Positions 45,760 through 53,109 of a stretch of 64,000 nt of DNA are shown here, one piece after another. This DNA is from Actinacidiphila alni (lineage in GTDB: Bacteria; Actinomycetota; Actinomycetes; Streptomycetales; Streptomycetaceae): assembly GCF_900112845.1 (NCBI RefSeq), contig NZ_FONG01000003.1, positions 62,001-126,000 of the forward strand, written 5' to 3'. Position numbers and translations under genes: made by a program. The notes under the pieces were generated by a model. That model was not told where the DNA came from. It ran no database searches and saw nothing but the letters and a program-made list of their open reading frames with translations. How positions within the stretch are numbered: position 1 is the stretch's first letter; each line of letters begins with the position of its first letter.

Positions 45760-46938
45760 ATGTCTCGAACGGTCGACAGCCGTCTTCCGGATCCCAGCCG
45801 CTGGAAAGCGCTGGTATTCATTTCCCTGGCCCAGTTGATGGTCGTTCTCGACTCCACGATCGTGAACATCGCGCTGCCCAGCGCGCAGCGCGATCTCGGA
45901 ATCTCCGACGCCAACAAGCAGTGGGTCATCACCGCCTACGCCCTCGCCTTCGGCGGTCTGCTGCTCTTCGGCGGCCGGATCGCCGACCTGTGGGGCCGCA
46001 AGCGGGCCTTCGTCGTCGGCCTGACCGGTTTCGCCCTCGCCTCCGCGATCGGCGGCGCCGCCGCCAACCAGGCGATGCTGCTCGGCTCCCGCGCCGCCCA
46101 GGGCGCCTTCGGCGCGCTGCTCGCGCCCGCCGCCCTCTCGCTGCTCGCGGTGACCTTCACCGACGCGCGCGAACGCGCCAAGGCGTTCGGCATCTTCGGC
46201 GCGATCGCCGGTGGCGGCGGCGCGGTCGGACTGCTGCTCGGCGGTGTCCTCACCGAGTACCTGAACTGGCGTTGGACGTTCTTCGCCAACATCCCGTTCG
46301 CCATCGTCGCGGCCCTCGGCGCGTACTTCGTGATCCGTGAGCCCGAAGGCGGCCGGAACCGTTCCGCGCTGGACATCCCCGGCGTGGTGCTCTCCACCCT
46401 CGGCCTGGTCTCCCTGGTGTATGGCTTCACCCGCGCCGAGACCAACGGCTGGTCCGCGCCGTCCACGATCGGCCTGTTCGTGGCCGCCGGCGTGCTGCTG
46501 GCCGCCTTCGGTCTGGTCGAGTCCAAGGTGAGGGCCCCGCTGCTGCCGATGCGGGTGGTTACCGAACGCAACCGCGGCGGTGTCTACGCCTCGCTGGGCC
46601 TGGCCATCATCGGCCTGTTCGGTGTGTTCCTCTTCCTGACGTACTACCTCCAGGTCGTCCAGGGCTACTCGGCGATCAGGACCGGTTTCGCCTTCCTGCC
46701 GATGGTCGCGGCCTTCGTGGTCGGCTCGACGCAGATCGGCACCCGGCTGGTCACCCGGGTCCCGGCCCGCCGGCTGATGGCGCCCGGCTTCGCCGTCGCC
46801 GCCGTCGCGATGCTGCTGCTGACACGGCTGGACATCGGCTCGTCATACCCGGGCGTGATCCTGCCGGGCCTGGTGCTGCTCGGCGGCGTTGTCCCGACCG
46901 CGCGGCGCACGCGGACCGGCCCGAATGCGACAACCTAG
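45760..46938 (+). pseudogene. DHA2-type MFS exporter, 5' fragment (split by island)
   Basis: True exporter sequence runs to codon LLG at 46876-46884 (375 residues, about ten to eleven spans): LAQLMVVLDSTIVNIALP and GRIADLWGRKRAFVVGL are hallmark QacA/EmrB segments. After that the frame reads 17 island-encoded residues to TAG at 46936-46938. The missing C-terminus is at 52693-53109 in the same frame. A truncated protein could be made but lacks the last spans. TetR gene and repeat array lie upstream. Confidence 0.88.
46876..46884 (+). repeat. 9-bp direct repeat, left flank of island
   Basis: CTGCTCGGC, identical to 52693-52701. Both encode Leu-Leu-Gly of the exporter; consistent with a target-site duplication. 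Confidence 0.8.
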
Positions 46939-47078
46939 ACGCAAGCCGCCGCAACCCATAGCGACCTGTCTGTACCCGGCGTAGACTCGCACCTCCTCGC
47001 GTCGCTCCCGTATCGCTACATCTCGGAACGCACGCCAGAGGTCAGTGCGCAGGTTGACCCGTCTGGACGGAAGGCGCC

Positions 47079-48254
47079 ATGTCTACCACCGAAACGCACA
47101 CGACTACGTTCAGTGCCCGTCTCGATCTCCAGTGGACCGCGAGCATCCGCCCCGGACTCCTCCACGCCCACCCCGACGACTTACCGAGCCTTCTCGGCCC
47201 ACGCGACTGGTCATCACGCCGATTACCGATCATCGATGAGCACGTGCATGCGATCTACGGCGAGCAGATCCGCGCACTTCTGGCCCGCTACGGCATAGAC
47301 CACCCTGACCCCCTCGTGTTACCGGGCGGCGAGTCCGCGAAAACCGCAGACACCGTCGAGCGCATCCATCGGTACATGGAGACGCACGGCGTGCCCCGCT
47401 TCGCGGAACCCCTGCTCGTCTGGGGTGGCGGCGTCGCCCACGACGTGGCCGGATACGCCGCCGCGACGTACCGGCGAGGAGTTCCCTACATCACGTTCGC
47501 CACTACGCTCGTCAGCGCCATCGACGCGATGTTCGCGCTCAAGGTGGCGATCAACTCGCAGTACAAGAACCGCGTTGGCAGCTACCACCCGCCCGCCACC
47601 GCCTACGCCGACCCGGCGTTCTTCTCCACCCTCGACCGTGGCCAGATCCTCGACGGCACAGGGGAAATCCTCAAGATCGCCATCGCCCTGGACGGCGGCC
47701 TCTTCCCGGTCCTAGAGCAACACGGCCCGCGAGCGGTGGCCGAGCACTTCCAGGGTCGCGACCCCGCCACGCTGGCGATCCTCCATCGCAGCGTCTCGGC
47801 GATGGGCGAAGAGCTGAGCAACAACCCATTCGAGCACGATCCCCAGCGCGCCAGCTACGCGGGGCACGGCATCTCTCCCGGTATGGAGCCCGAGGTCAGC
47901 CATGGAGTCGCGGTCGCGCTGGATCTCCTCGTCACGACGATGATCGCGTGGCGGCGGGGCGCTGTTGCTACTCCCTACCGAGACCGGATCGTGCGCCTCG
48001 CCCACGCCCTGGGCCTGCCGCTATGGCACCCCGTGCTCGAACGGCCACAGGTCCTCTTCGACGCGCTCATCGACACCGCCCGCCATCGCGGCGGCCGACA
48101 GCGCATCCCGGCCCCCGTGCATGAGCCCGGCCGCGTTCGCTACCTCGACGGAATCGACCTCGCCGAGTTGCACCGCGCGCTCAACGACCTCCACCACGCC
48201 GCATCTCACGACCGAGCCCGGAGGACCCAATGGACCTCGACCACCGGAGAATGA
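47079..48254 (+). CDS. Sugar-phosphate cyclase, EEVS/dehydroquinate-synthase-like
   Basis: 391 residues. NAD-binding GGGVAHDVAGYAAATYRRGV, KVAINSQYKNRVGSYHPP, and putative metal ligands Glu196 (GTGEILK), His263 (YAGHGISPG) and His274 (VSHGVAVALD) match this superfamily; the PIIDEHVHAIYGEQI and YRRGVPYITF blocks resemble 2-epi-5-epi-valiolone synthases more than aromatic-pathway enzymes. It would cyclise a sugar phosphate (perhaps sedoheptulose 7-phosphate) to a cyclitol ketone. GGAAGG precedes the ATG. Three TTA codons (47181, 47223, 47319) suggest bldA dependence. First gene of the island. Confidence 0.82.
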   Translation: MSTTETHTTTFSARLDLQWTASIRPGLLHAHPDDLPSLLGPRDWSSRRLPIIDEHVHAIYGEQIRALLARYGIDHPDPLVLPGGESAKTADTVERIHRYMETHGVPRFAEPLLVWGGGVAHDVAGYAAATYRRGVPYITFATTLVSAIDAMFALKVAINSQYKNRVGSYHPPATAYADPAFFSTLDRGQILDGTGEILKIAIALDGGLFPVLEQHGPRAVAEHFQGRDPATLAILHRSVSAMGEELSNNPFEHDPQRASYAGHGISPGMEPEVSHGVAVALDLLVTTMIAWRRGAVATPYRDRIVRLAHALGLPLWHPVLERPQVLFDALIDTARHRGGRQRIPAPVHEPGRVRYLDGIDLAELHRALNDLHHAASHDRARRTQWTSTTGE

Positions 48255-48679
48255 CGCCACCATTCATCCGCGAATCGCACCGCGCTAGGTCGGGCGAAAC
48301 AGATGTGATCGTGTGGGATCTCCGCATCGGACAGCCCAACGTCAGCCGGGTGCCTGCTCCCGTCATGCACTCGATGGAGCATGCGCTGATCGCCTATCTC
48401 CGCCGGGACGGTCCGGCCGTCATCCACGCCGCGCCGATGGGGTGCGGCACCGGTCTCTATCTCGTCACGTTCGTCCTCGACTTCGAGGAGATCGCCCGAC
48501 TCGTCGCGAGTGCCCTCGAATCGCTCTTGCGCGCAACCGAGGTGCCGATGGCCGACACCGCGCAGTGCGGCGCTGCCGAGCACCACACGCTGAGTGGCGC
48601 GCAGGAGGTCGCCCGATGGCTTCTGCGTCATCGCGCCGAATGGGCGCAAGCGCTCGACCACCCCGACGACGACCGCTGA
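48230..48679 (+). CDS. LuxS-like S-ribosylhomocysteine lyase homologue
   Basis: 149 residues. The LuxS zinc motif HSMEH (His47, Glu50, His51) and third ligand Cys113 (QCG) are present, as is the catalytic Cys72 in PMGCGTGLYL; His17 and Arg32 match LuxS positions 11 and 39. The Asp that normally precedes SPMGC (Asp78 in B. subtilis) is His66 here. Streptomycetes usually recycle S-adenosylhomocysteine by AhcY, so this is probably a recruited isomerase/lyase. Starts inside the cyclase gene; ATG 48230 has GGAGG, ATG 48251 is the alternative. Confidence 0.83.
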   Translation: MDLDHRRMTPPFIRESHRARSGETDVIVWDLRIGQPNVSRVPAPVMHSMEHALIAYLRRDGPAVIHAAPMGCGTGLYLVTFVLDFEEIARLVASALESLLRATEVPMADTAQCGAAEHHTLSGAQEVARWLLRHRAEWAQALDHPDDDR

Positions 48680-48688
48680 GGAGCCCCG

Positions 48689-50008
48689 GTGTCGATCCAC
48701 GCCCAGCACTACACGCGCTATACCGAGTCCGCGACGATCCTTCAGCGCGCGCTGAAAGTCATTCCCGGCGCGGCCAACTCGTGGACCAGATGGACGGACA
48801 TCCCGATCAGCCCCGCCCGCGCCCAGGGCGCGCGCCTGTGGGATGTGGACGGCCGTGAGTACCTTGACTTCCACGGTGCGTTCAGCGCCATCGTCCTTGG
48901 CCACGCATATCCCGATGTCGCTCAAGCTCTGACCGACCAGGCTCACGGGCTCGTGCTCGCGGGCATCGGCCGGACTCCTGCCGAGGTCGAGTTGGCGGAA
49001 CGGCTCGTGCGCCACATCCCCAGCGCCGAGCAAGCGTTGCTTGCGCCATCTGGATCGGATGCGACGTATAGCGCGCTCCGCCTCGCCCGCGCCGTCACCC
49101 GGCGCGACTGCATCGTCAAGTTCGCCGGGAGCTTCCACGGGCCGCATGACTACGCGCTGCGCAGCGCCAACGACGCGGGCGAGGGGGGCACCGTTGGGCC
49201 TGACGGCGTGCTCAGCGCCGCCGCCCGCACCGTCATCACGTGCGAGTACAACGACCTTGAGGCCGTGGCAGACCTGTTCGCCCGGCGCGGCGAGGAGATC
49301 GCGGCCGCGATCGTAGAGCCGATCGCGTTCAACGCGAGCCTGCATCCCGAACCTGGGTTCCTCGATGGGCTCCGCAAGCTCACGACCGAGCATGGCGCGC
49401 TGCTCATCTTCGATGAGGTGATCACGGGCTTCCGCCTCGGGCTTGGCGGCGCGCAAGCGCAGTTCGGCATCACGCCGGACCTGACGACGCTCGGCAAGGC
49501 GCTCGGCAACGGCGTGCCTGTCGCGGCACTCGTCGGCCCCGAGCGCCACATGTCGCGCTTCGGCACCACGCCACATGGCACGGTGCCGTACTCGGGCACG
49601 CACAACGGCAACGGGCTTGCCGTAGCGGCGGCGAATGCGACCCTCGGCGTGATGGAGCGCGAGCCGGTTCATGAGCATCTAGCCCGGCTCGGCGACCGGA
49701 TGCGCGCGGGTCTCCGCGAGATCGCGCAGGACTGCGACGTGCCCGCCGTGGTGACGGGCTCCGCCTCGATCTACAACCTGCTCTTCACCGACACGCCGCC
49801 GAGGACGTTCGCCGACATCCTGAGCGTGGACGAATCGCTGTTCCTCGCCTACCGCAACGAGATGGTCAGGCGCGGAATCCTGGAGATGCCTTTACCACTG
49901 ATGCGCGCTCAGGTCACCTACAGCCATACCGACGCGGACGTTGACAGAGCCCTGGAGACCGCGCAGGTCGCGCTTAGGGCTGCGCGGGACCAAGCCGTGA
50001 ACTCATGA
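48689..50008 (+). CDS. Class III PLP aminotransferase (GSA-aminomutase-like)
   Basis: 439 residues. PLP site Lys270 in TLGKALGNGVPVAALVG, upstream Asp in LLIFDEVITGFRLG, and APSGSDATYSALRLAR for phosphate binding. Most like glutamate-1-semialdehyde aminomutases and sugar/cyclitol aminotransferases. It likely aminates the ketone made by the cyclase or LuxS-like step. GTG start with GAGGAG; 9 bp after the LuxS-like gene. One TTA codon at 49892. Confidence 0.88.
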   Translation: MSIHAQHYTRYTESATILQRALKVIPGAANSWTRWTDIPISPARAQGARLWDVDGREYLDFHGAFSAIVLGHAYPDVAQALTDQAHGLVLAGIGRTPAEVELAERLVRHIPSAEQALLAPSGSDATYSALRLARAVTRRDCIVKFAGSFHGPHDYALRSANDAGEGGTVGPDGVLSAAARTVITCEYNDLEAVADLFARRGEEIAAAIVEPIAFNASLHPEPGFLDGLRKLTTEHGALLIFDEVITGFRLGLGGAQAQFGITPDLTTLGKALGNGVPVAALVGPERHMSRFGTTPHGTVPYSGTHNGNGLAVAAANATLGVMEREPVHEHLARLGDRMRAGLREIAQDCDVPAVVTGSASIYNLLFTDTPPRTFADILSVDESLFLAYRNEMVRRGILEMPLPLMRAQVTYSHTDADVDRALETAQVALRAARDQAVNS

Positions 50009-50032
50009 CCTCAGACCGGAGGGATCGCACCG

Positions 50033-50800
50033 ATGGACAGCTTCGAAGCGACGCGCGCCACCCAGGGGCGGGCGTTACGAGCCCTCGCCCGGACGCTGGG
50101 GGCGGCCTCGCCTGGCGCTACGACGTACGACAGTGACGGCGTCACGGCATGCATCGTCCCGGCAGCGAAGAACGATGCAGACGCGAACTTCGCCGCCTAC
50201 ACGGCACCCGCTGCCCTCGCCTCCGCGCTTCCCGAGATCGCCGAAGCGTACGAAACGGCCGGCGTCGGGTCATGGGAGATCTACGTGCCCGAATCCGACG
50301 ATCAGACGGCGCGTGGCCTTGCCGCCGCCGGATACCGCAGACGTGACCGGCTCCCCGCCATCATCCTCGACCTGGCGACATTCGAGCCGCGCTCGATCGG
50401 GGACCTGGACTACGACGTACGCGGCGACGTTGCCACCCTGGGCCGCCTCAACGCCGCCGCCTACGACCGGCCCGAGCTGGCGCGGGCATTCGCTCAGACG
50501 CCAGACGTTCCTGGGCTCCGCGTCTACCGCGCCCGGCTCGACGGTGAACCGGCGTGCGCGCTACTGACGATCGACGTGCCCCACGCCGATGGCCTCGATT
50601 GCGCGGCGTACTTCCTGGCGACCGTGCCGAACGCGCGTCGCCGGGGGCTCGCTCCCCGACTGTTCACCGCCGCGTTGCTCGATGCCCGCGAACGTGGCTG
50701 CGACACATGCTCGGGGCAGGCGTCGCCCATGGGTGCGCCGATCTACGCCCGCATGGGCTTCCGCACGGCCTTCCACTTCGACCGGTACGAGAAAGGCTAG
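50033..50800 (+). CDS. GNAT-family N-acetyltransferase
   Basis: 255 residues. The C-terminal half carries the GNAT core: ACALLTIDVPHADGLDCAAY, then acetyl-CoA loop TVPNARRRGLAPRLFTAALL (R-R-x-G-L) and SPMGAPIYARMGFRTAF. The N-terminal half is less conserved. It probably acylates the amine introduced by the aminotransferase. One TTA codon near the start (50075). 24 bp after the aminotransferase. Confidence 0.82.
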   Translation: MDSFEATRATQGRALRALARTLGAASPGATTYDSDGVTACIVPAAKNDADANFAAYTAPAALASALPEIAEAYETAGVGSWEIYVPESDDQTARGLAAAGYRRRDRLPAIILDLATFEPRSIGDLDYDVRGDVATLGRLNAAAYDRPELARAFAQTPDVPGLRVYRARLDGEPACALLTIDVPHADGLDCAAYFLATVPNARRRGLAPRLFTAALLDARERGCDTCSGQASPMGAPIYARMGFRTAFHFDRYEKG

Positions 50801-50804
50801 CCAC

Positions 50805-51572
50805 GTGTCCAACGTTGCTCGGCAGCTTCCCGAATCCCAAGGCTGGTCGCTCGATCGCGCTATTCAGCTGCTACCAGCGCAGTTCGCAGCTCGCCTAGAC
50901 CTACGACGGCCGCACCTGTATCAGACGGAGGGTGGGCCGATGAATGGGCAGACAGGACGACAACAGATATTCAGGGAACTCGTCCGGACAATCGACTTCC
51001 AGCAGGTGATTGAGACGGGGACACATCGAGGGGCCACTACGGAGTTCCTCGCCGCTATCACCGGGGTGCCCGTCGCAACCGTTGAGTTGGCAGACCGCTA
51101 CCGTCAGTTTGCGCAGGCCCGCTTCGCGAGCAACCCCAACGTGCAAGTCTCTGATGGCGATTCCCGCGATTTCCTGCGGCGGCTAAGCGTGACGCGATCG
51201 GATGCCCTCACGCTGTTCTACCTCGACGCACATTGGTTGGACGATCTACCGCTCGCCGACGAGTTGCGGATCATCTCGGGTTCGTGGTCGAAGGCCGTCG
51301 TCGTGATCGATGACTTCCAGGTACCCGGCGATGCCGGATACGCCTACGACGACTACGGCCCCGGCAAGGCGTTGGCGGCGGACTACCTGCCCGACGAGAT
51401 CCGGTCTTGGACGCTCCTCTATCCCGCGATGGAGTCGGCTTCCGAGACTGGCGCCCGCTGCGGAGCCGCGTTTCTAGCCAGCCCATACCTCGCTGACGTA
51501 GTCGGCAAGCTTCGGACGCTGCGTCGTGCCCCGACGAGCCCGCCTGCCGGAACCCGCTCCCCTTCCGTCTAG
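50805..51572 (+). CDS. Class I SAM methyltransferase-like protein
   Basis: 255 residues from GTG 50805 (GAAAGG upstream); ATG 50940 is a shorter alternative. Motif I IETGTHRGATTEFLA, acidic motif II VATVELADRYRQFA, and FYLDAHWLDDLPLADEL resemble Methyltransf_24/TylF-like O-methyltransferases. The final acidic loop VVVIDDFQVPGDAGYAYDDY may coordinate metal. Likely tailors the pathway product. Four bp after the acetyltransferase; last of the biosynthetic genes, followed by strong hairpins. Confidence 0.75.
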   Translation: MSNVARQLPESQGWSLDRAIQLLPAQFAARLDLRRPHLYQTEGGPMNGQTGRQQIFRELVRTIDFQQVIETGTHRGATTEFLAAITGVPVATVELADRYRQFAQARFASNPNVQVSDGDSRDFLRRLSVTRSDALTLFYLDAHWLDDLPLADELRIISGSWSKAVVVIDDFQVPGDAGYAYDDYGPGKALAADYLPDEIRSWTLLYPAMESASETGARCGAAFLASPYLADVVGKLRTLRRAPTSPPAGTRSPSV

Positions 51573-51577
51573 TCTGT

Positions 51578-51630
51578 GGCGCGGTCGCGGCGGTCGGAGC
51601 CGTGGAGGCTTCGACCGCCGCGACCGCGCC
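51578..51630. terminator. Long hairpin terminator
   Basis: A 19-bp perfect stem (51578-51596 with 51612-51630) extended by a G-T pair and an inner 4-bp AGCC/GGCT stem. It ends the biosynthetic operon. Confidence 0.88.
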
Positions 51631-51644
51631 TTGACCGGCGGTGT

Positions 51645-51675
51645 CCACCGACTACGGCGGTGCCGTAGTCGGTGG
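51645..51675. terminator. Second hairpin terminator
   Basis: A 14-bp perfect stem (51645-51658 with 51662-51675, CCACCGACTACGGC arm), loop GGT. Serves the convergent small genes. Confidence 0.85.
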
Positions 51676-51690
51676 CGTGGGAAGTAGCCG

Positions 51691-51966
51691 CTACGGCTTG
51701 GGCTGCGTCCGTTCGCGCGCGGTGGCATACGGTCCTTCTAGCGGACGCCAATTCTCCGGAGCGCGGATCTCACCGGAGTCCCATAGGGCATAGCACTGGT
51801 TCAGCCACTCCCTTGCACCCTCGACCGTGCCCCGCTCGATGTACCAGCCGGGCCCGCCGGGCTGGCGCGGGAAACCGCAGAACTCTCGAAATCGTCGGTC
51901 GTACACCCCGAACGTGCGGCCGGGCCTGATCCGCGCGACGACGTAGCGACTGGCCGACGCGCTCAT
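51691..51966 (-). CDS. Small island protein, paralogue A
   Basis: 91 residues from ATG 51966, overlapping the preceding gene by ATGA. It shares with its neighbour the pattern AREWLNQCYALWDSGEIRAP / AEAWLQKCYQRWESGTTPAP followed by a W-R pair. Rich in aromatic residues; no signal or membrane segment. Function unknown. Confidence 0.7.
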   Translation of the reverse strand: MSASASRYVVARIRPGRTFGVYDRRFREFCGFPRQPGGPGWYIERGTVEGAREWLNQCYALWDSGEIRAPENWRPLEGPYATARERTQPKP

Positions 51967-52223
51967 AGGACCACCTGATTCGACTCCCAAGGAGACCAGG
52001 TGCGCCACTCGTCCGGTGCCGGAGTCGTGCCGCTCTCCCACCGCTGATAGCACTTCTGAAGCCAGGCTTCGGCGCCGTGTGGAGAGCGCCACTCCAACGG
52101 CAGCAGATTCGGGTGTGGCTCGGCCGGGTCATCGGGCAGAGCGCAGAACGCGTCTGCGGCTCGGTCCAAGATGACGTACCGGGTGGTACTACCGGGCAGG
52201 TTTACGACGGAGTATCGCGCCAT
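51963..52223 (-). CDS. Small island protein, paralogue B
   Basis: 86 residues, paralogous to the next gene (shared TRYVILDR/SRYVVARI, WLxxCYxxWxSG and APxxWR). Conserved Cys and Trp suggest a small folded domain. Coupled to its neighbours at both ends. Function unknown. Confidence 0.7.
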   Translation of the reverse strand: MARYSVVNLPGSTTRYVILDRAADAFCALPDDPAEPHPNLLPLEWRSPHGAEAWLQKCYQRWESGTTPAPDEWRTWSPWESNQVVL

Positions 52224-52554
52224 TCCACAGGCCCTTTCGTCTGCGTCCCCTGAGGGACCGCGCGGTGATAACGAGTGTCAGCGGTACCGTGTCGAGCGTC
52301 ATGCGCCATGAACCTGACGTCTCGATCGTCACGCGCGTCATGGGATCGAGCAGCGCCTGACGCAGCCTCGGTACATCTAGCTCGTATGCCTGCTGCTGAG
52401 CCTCTTCGAAGTCGCCCAGAGCATCTTCGACGGCATCTCCGACAAATGCGCGTACCTCGGACCACCCGGTGACCGCCCGCTCGCGTGGCGACTCATCGTC
52501 GCGCAGGATCGAGATCCGATAGCGCGGCGCGGACCTCCAGGGGAAGGCAGGCAC
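52189..52554 (-). CDS. Small island protein of unknown function
   Basis: 121 residues, acidic helical centre (FVGDAVEDALGDFEEAQQQA) and a very basic C-terminus (RSLRGRRRKGLWNGAILRRK). GTG start with GGAG 5 bp upstream. Overlaps the next gene by 35 bp in another frame. First of three coupled small genes. Function unknown. Confidence 0.6.
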   Translation of the reverse strand: MPAFPWRSAPRYRISILRDDESPRERAVTGWSEVRAFVGDAVEDALGDFEEAQQQAYELDVPRLRQALLDPMTRVTIETSGSWRMTLDTVPLTLVITARSLRGRRRKGLWNGAILRRKPAR

Positions 52555-52692
52555 GTTGCTCCTACGGTGCTAGATGAACACTCCTGGCCTCTAGCCTAGT
52601 CCCGAAGCGGCCCCCGGTGCACTTAGATCGACACCAAGAAGTCCGTCCAGGCTGGTGGACTATCCGCCATCCGTCATACGTGGGGACATCCC

Positions 52693-52701
52693 CTGCTCGG
52701 C
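52693..52701 (+). repeat. 9-bp direct repeat, right flank of island
   Basis: CTGCTCGGC, partner of 46876-46884. Confidence 0.8.
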
Positions 52702-53109
52702 CTCGGCATGGGCACGGCCTTCATGCCCGCCATGTCCCTGGCCACGCACGGCATCCAGCCGCAGGACGCGGGTGTCGCCTCCGCGATGGTGAACACCTCG
52801 CAGCAGGTCGGCGGCGCCATCGGCACGGCGCTGCTGAACACCGTCGCCGCCTCGGCCACCACCAGCTACCTCGCGGCGCACACCGCGGGTGCGGGCGGTC
52901 CGAAGCTGCTCCAGGCGCAGGGCCTGGTGCACGGCTACACGCACGCCATCTGGTGGGCGGTCGGCATCGAGGCCATCGCGGCCCTGATCGCCCTCACCTT
53001 CATCAACGCCGGCCGTCCCGGCTCCACCCGCGTCGCCTCCAGCGACGGCGACGGTGCGGGCAGCGCGGCCACCCAGGACGAGGCGGCGGTGCCGGTCGTC
53101 ATGCACTGA
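52693..53109 (+). pseudogene. DHA2-type MFS exporter, 3' fragment
   Basis: Continues the frame of 45760-46884: LLGLGMGTAFMPAMSLATHG, then DAGVASAMVNTSQQVGGAIG, the classic motif near the end of 14-span exporters, and one more span (WWAVGIEAIAALIALTFI). The joined protein would be 510 residues, the normal family length. It lacks its own credible RBS. Confidence 0.88.

Follow-up and report, generated by a model that had tools for sequence, protein, structure and literature searches.

LuxS is treated as an enzyme of a single reaction and as a genomic marker of autoinducer 2 (AI-2) signalling. The C7 cyclitols are a class of compounds that includes acarbose, validamycin and natural sunscreens; in the clusters of the C7N aminocyclitols, a cyclase of the sedoheptulose 7-phosphate (S7P) type opens the operon and shares it with an aminotransferase, and amination and acylation are typical later steps. 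Here we describe an island of 5.8 kb in the 8.27-Mb genome of Actinacidiphila alni, in which a gene for a LuxS-fold protein directly follows a sugar-phosphate cyclase gene. The island lies in a stretch of 64,000 nucleotides (contig NZ_FONG01000003.1, positions 62,001 to 126,000), which is called the window below.

The LuxS reaction is a metal-assisted carbonyl migration in which Cys84 shuttles the C2 proton (PMC3907816), and luxS and sahH are almost mutually exclusive among bacteria (PMC524169). The island protein has the fold, the metal ligands, the catalytic cysteine and the first-shell arginine and histidine of canonical LuxS, but it has neither Asp78 nor the N-terminal Ser-Phe motif, is paired with a cyclase and falls below curated LuxS cut-offs, and its host uses S-adenosylhomocysteine hydrolase (SahH) and has no nucleosidase over the family cut-off. 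Compared with the C7N aminocyclitol pathways, the island has the cyclase and the aminotransferase but no cyclitol kinase, nucleotidyltransferase or pseudoglycosyltransferase; it has a LuxS-fold protein where those pathways have other epimerases, and its cyclase carries Tyr for Asp281. The ebo operon (EboA-F), in two papers on which LuxS goes unmentioned (PMC5133447, PMC6282210), likewise has a sugar-phosphate cyclase from the S7P part of the tree, but the island is without UbiA, TIM-barrel, TatD-like and phosphodiesterase genes, and its identification as an ebo operon was rejected because these Ebo partners are missing. A plasmid of Streptomyces sp. NBC_00467 (L074, 3818-8717) carries what is apparently an uncharacterised C7-aminocyclitol cluster with a cyclase, a small putative metalloenzyme and a class-III aminotransferase in the same order as the island, but the metalloenzyme is a cupin rather than a LuxS, the exporter is of the ABC type and the shared genes are only 31-36% identical. 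Another cyclitol cluster, on the S. clavuligerus megaplasmid (L071, 4831-12813), comprises ROK kinase, S7P cyclase, DegT aminotransferase, HAD and GNAT genes.

The cyclase-LuxS pair

Comparison of genomes supports the view that a cyclase and a LuxS-fold enzyme form a module recurring in unrelated genomes and clusters, and it is this module, with a LuxS that lacks the hallmarks of its usual job, that we consider worth pursuing. In a cyclase scan covering one genome per species, the sole close relative came from Nocardia sp. CNY236, where a cyclase with 49% identity to that of the window is directly followed by a LuxS with 46% identity. LuxS was present in 10 of the 395 genomes of a class-wide sample and adjoined a cyclase only in the window's genome and in one other (G545), whose gene order (moeA, galU, mscL, moaB) suggests a member of the Mycobacteriaceae. 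In the genus of G545 the pair is carried by 4 of 148 genomes, where it sits in a cluster of genes for an ABC transporter, FtsX permease, CrtC-like protein, TIM barrel, LuxS, cyclase, UbiA and polyprenyl synthase, in that order (L032, 6675-16447; also L044, L045 and L046). The cluster has the look of an ebo-related pathway to a prenylated cyclitol, supplemented with LuxS. The Chloroflexi metagenome-assembled genome SURF MAG 42 has been tabulated, without comment, with the succession TIM barrel, LuxS, 2-epi-5-epi-valiolone synthase (EEVS), UbiG and UbiA (PMC8756737, Table A1). The neighbours of the pair largely differ between groups; the Mycobacteriaceae-like clusters are similar to that of Chloroflexi, and in both the pair is joined by a TIM-barrel isomerase and a UbiA prenyltransferase, in the manner of EboD, EboE and EboC. 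At the Nocardia locus (L031, 7702-13497), genes for a Gfo/Idh oxidoreductase and an IolE-like TIM barrel are divergent from the cyclase, LuxS and a gamma-glutamyltransferase-like gene. No LuxS was found in the 34 other genomes of the window's genus or in 197 other genomes of its order, and a literature search returned no published description of a cyclase-LuxS module.

Six cyclase-linked LuxS proteins could be compared, namely those of the window, of Nocardia sp. CNY236 and of the four genomes of G545's genus. The window protein keeps His5, Arg32, His47, Glu50, His51, Cys72 and Cys113, the equivalents of His11, Arg39, His54, Glu57, His58, Cys84 and Cys126 of Bacillus subtilis LuxS; all six proteins keep these seven residues, and the metal ligands, the catalytic cysteine and Arg32 are invariant among them. 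The N-terminal Ser-Phe motif, by contrast, is present in none of the six and in each of the 29 other full-length LuxS proteins, and the position before the 'PMGC' motif is His, Asn or Ser in the cyclase-linked proteins and Asp or Tyr in the others. Going by LuxS crystal structures, both sites presumably hold the substrate. Ordinary LuxS proteins from other classes of the phylum (L050-L070) have Tyr for the Asp before PMGC and retain the Ser-Phe motif. The window protein scores 102.9 bits against the NCBIfam LuxS equivalog, whose cut-off is 208 bits. A structure prediction for it was unusable (predicted local distance difference test, pLDDT, 42; alignment of two rows).

The genomic context points in the same direction. 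Full-length SahH was found in all six genomes with a cyclase-linked LuxS and in none of the five ordinary-LuxS genomes tested, and no nucleosidase above the family cut-off is present in the genomes of the window, G545 or Nocardia sp. CNY236. Given the loss of the Ser-Phe motif, the SahH and nucleosidase context and the equivalog scores below cut-off, the cyclase-linked LuxS is very probably not canonical and no longer takes part in S-ribosylhomocysteine recycling.

The top match of the cyclase is ValA, the EEVS of validamycin biosynthesis, and its three metal ligands are retained. In the tree, the window and Nocardia cyclases fall with S7P cyclases and are split from 3-dehydroquinate synthases (DHQS) at 99/100. 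We take Leu267, Asp281 and His360 of ValA to be the sites that tell EEVS from desmethyl-4-deoxygadusol synthase (DDGS). The site numbers, reportedly those of Kean et al. 2014 and Osborn et al., were checked against the aligned 4p53 chain. Both cyclases keep the equivalents of Leu267 and His360 and have Tyr at the position of Asp281, where the four Mycobacteriaceae-like cyclases have Asp. Together, these features suggest that the substrate is probably S7P or a close relative.

An island inside an exporter gene

A foreign 5.8-kb segment has been inserted precisely into the gene of a major facilitator superfamily (MFS) exporter (Table 1). About 34 other species of the genus were available for comparison, and in at least 11 of these (L008-L018) the exporter is whole, reading through GLVLLGLGMGTAFMPAMSLAT or near variants to the full C-terminus; joining the flanks of the window gives 510 residues counted from the ATG. 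A left-flank query matches these relatives up to position 46884 and the match of a right-flank query begins at 52692-52693, so that the two overlap by 9-10 bases at the same spot. This gives 5,817 bp of extra DNA, and of the two copies of the 9-bp direct repeat CTGCTCGGC one is the host's own. The first-pass annotation had proposed an exporter split in two by an island with the same sequence at both ends, and both points were borne out. It had also counted the island's length, a multiple of three, as evidence; this carries no weight, because precise insertion of any length rejoins the gene in frame.

Its proposal that a compact operon had been inserted recently is upheld by the empty sites, the direct repeat, the absence of LuxS from the other genomes of the genus and the composition. 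At 67.3%, the G+C content of the island is below the 72.3% of the remaining window and lower than that of any other 5.8-kb stretch there. Third codon positions have a G+C fraction of 0.71-0.85 in the island genes and, in those neighbours that were measured, of 0.90-0.96. The island has five TTA codons (three in the cyclase gene and one each in the genes for the aminotransferase and GNAT); the measured neighbours have none, suggesting that expression of the island may depend on bldA.

Table 1. The interrupted exporter gene and the contents of the island, in coordinates of the window
Feature	Position	Strand	Evidence
DHA2-family MFS exporter, N-terminal part	45709 (GTG) or 45760 (ATG)-46884	+	Pfam MFS_1 1.4e-44; whole orthologues in genus-mates
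9-bp direct repeat CTGCTCGGC, left copy	46876-46884	.	flank alignment to relatives
Sugar-phosphate cyclase, DHQ-synthase fold	47079-48254	+	Pfam DHQ_synthase 2.9e-26; ValA 4p53 E 7e-63; alignment, tree
LuxS-fold enzyme	48230-48679	+	Pfam LuxS 4e-29; Tm LuxS 1j6x E 4e-28; alignments
Class-III pyridoxal phosphate (PLP) aminotransferase, glutamate-1-semialdehyde-aminomutase-like, under hemL cut-off	48689-50008	+	profile searches
GNAT-domain acyltransferase, 255 aa, GNAT part C-terminal	50033-50800	+	profile searches
Putative S-adenosylmethionine (SAM)-dependent methyltransferase, weakly supported	50805-51572	+	PHROG 0.0043; catechol O-methyltransferase 6aw4 E 0.011; plasmid homologues
Small orphan protein, 39% like neighbour at 51963-52223	51691-51966	-	
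Small orphan protein	51963-52223	-	
Small orphan protein	52189-52554	-	
9-bp direct repeat CTGCTCGGC, right copy	52693-52701	.	flank alignment to relatives
Exporter C-terminal part	52702-53109	+	read-through in genus-mates

The five enzyme genes share a strand and are spaced by -25 (the overlap of cyclase and LuxS), +9, +24 and +4 bp, and Shine-Dalgarno-like sequences precede the first four. The expected content of a cyclase, LuxS, aminotransferase (class III), GNAT and three tiny genes was confirmed, and the match of the fifth enzyme to methyltransferases is weak. Homologues of this enzyme on plasmids were found among glycan genes; its structure prediction was unusable (pLDDT 38). Searches with LuxS as the marker, covering 34 genus-mates and further genomes from the order (197), the class (394) and the phylum (395), turned up no second full five-gene set. 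One of the refuting outcomes named in the first-pass annotation, that the five genes never occur together elsewhere, was thus borne out in part, in that only the cyclase-LuxS pair recurs.

The first two of the small minus-strand genes are paralogues. None of the three could be named from Pfam, NCBIfam or PHROG, and searches of plasmids, phages, viral contigs and 294 genomes of the order (not each gene in each collection) gave no accepted match. Two weak outside matches were dropped, as they overlie frames of more than 1,000 codons, one of which (L035) is a polyketide synthase. A role in anti-phage defence was also dropped, the one PADLOC match being weak and meaningless.

A proposed cyclitol pathway and its alternatives

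In the pathway that we propose, the cyclase would start from S7P or a close relative and yield a 2-epi-5-epi-valiolone-type C7 cyclitol ketone. Using its metal and Cys72, the LuxS-fold enzyme would then enolise this alpha-hydroxy-ketone, shifting the carbonyl or inverting C2, possibly with loss of water. An alpha-hydroxy cyclitol ketone is a plausible substrate for this fold because LuxS does the same chemistry on the ribose of S-ribosylhomocysteine. Next, the aminotransferase would turn the ketone into an amine, GNAT would acylate it and the last enzyme would perhaps methylate, giving an N-acylated C7 aminocyclitol that is possibly methylated. For a step comparable to that of LuxS, the validamycin and cetoniacytone pathways use a metalloenzyme of the vicinal oxygen chelate (VOC) fold, and on the Streptomyces plasmid, where an S7P cyclase is followed by cupin, class-III aminotransferase and exporter genes, the cupin occupies the LuxS position. 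These cases suggest that a small metalloenzyme beside the cyclase is a recurring slot. Acarbose biosynthesis includes an epimerisation at C2 of the phosphorylated cyclase product (PMC9200736). We consider it fairly likely that the LuxS-fold enzyme acts on the cyclase product or a descendant of it. That it represents a branch outside methyl-cycle recycling and AI-2 synthesis, acting as a metal-dependent cyclitol isomerase or dehydratase, has in our estimate an even chance, and an N-acylated aminocyclitol as the end product is a suggestion for which we would give equal weight to either outcome. The N-acylated, methylated aminocyclitol of the first-pass annotation thus stays plausible and our best guess, with methylation as its weaker part. 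The explanation taken as a whole, from the insertion and the module to a LuxS working on a cyclitol and an N-acylated aminocyclitol, is one that we favour slightly.

Several observations weigh against this explanation. Tyr at the Asp281 site means that the substrate or product of the cyclase may not be that of EEVS, the two lineages of LuxS-linked cyclases do not group in the tree, and a single origin of the cyclase-linked LuxS is weakly supported, the six clustering at 79/57. The contrast in SahH is confounded by descent, because one genus supplies four of the six genomes, and a nucleosidase in three of the four Mycobacteriaceae-like genomes provides a route to S-ribosylhomocysteine there. 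The later steps rest on the one operon from which the five-gene set is known, and within it the methyltransferase is weakly supported (E values of 0.04 for the best Pfam match and 0.0043 for PHROG). One alternative is a canonical LuxS, which converts S-ribosylhomocysteine to homocysteine and 4,5-dihydroxy-2,3-pentanedione (AI-2), the latter serving as a five-carbon block or a signal beside an independent cyclitol. The retained fold, metal ligands, catalytic Cys and equivalents of Arg39 and His11 are consistent with this, as are the three nucleosidases, but it appears quite improbable given the missing Ser-Phe motif, the failure to reach the NCBIfam cut-off, the SahH-containing and nucleosidase-free genome of the window, and a distribution in which other sampled genomes of the order have no LuxS and the cyclase-linked kind always adjoins a cyclase.

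It is also conceivable, if somewhat unlikely, that no aminocyclitol is made: the cyclase would use a different sugar phosphate, and the products of the aminotransferase, GNAT and last genes would decorate some other compound, such as a glycan or an amino acid. This would fit the Tyr in the cyclase, an aminotransferase closest to glutamate-1-semialdehyde aminomutase and the glycan clusters that hold homologues of the last gene; the cyclase, however, is nearer to EEVS-type enzymes than to DHQS, and the layout of cyclase, metalloenzyme and class-III aminotransferase is found on the Streptomyces plasmid as well. An unlikely alternative of another kind is that the insert is a decayed or mobilised element with silent cargo, either integrated by a site-specific integrase acting in trans or moved as a transposase-less cassette. 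Apart from the 9-bp repeat, the island ends carry an imperfect inverted TGTCCC.AC (chance p ~0.03), and repeat and ends fit a target-site duplication or an attachment core alike. Pfam and PHROG scans of the island genes found no integrase or transposase, the genome has no serine integrase (PF07508), and the TTA codons may restrict translation. Set against this, the five genes are all open, close together and mostly equipped with ribosome-binding sites, with no signs of decay, and searches with the island ends in 346 family genomes gave short weak matches only, which leaves the mobility model likewise unsupported.

Implications for LuxS and C7 cyclitols

If the LuxS-fold enzyme does process a cyclitol, the old LuxS fold would have a second reaction. 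We know of no reaction of this fold on anything other than S-ribosylhomocysteine, and a cyclitol role would be the first. A dedicated cyclitol branch of LuxS, for and against which we see the case as balanced, would serve alongside S7P cyclases in the making of natural products by Actinomycetota and Chloroflexi. Genomes with such a LuxS would currently be misannotated as AI-2 producers, and a cyclase beside a LuxS without the Ser-Phe motif would be a genomic marker for unexplored C7-cyclitol clusters.

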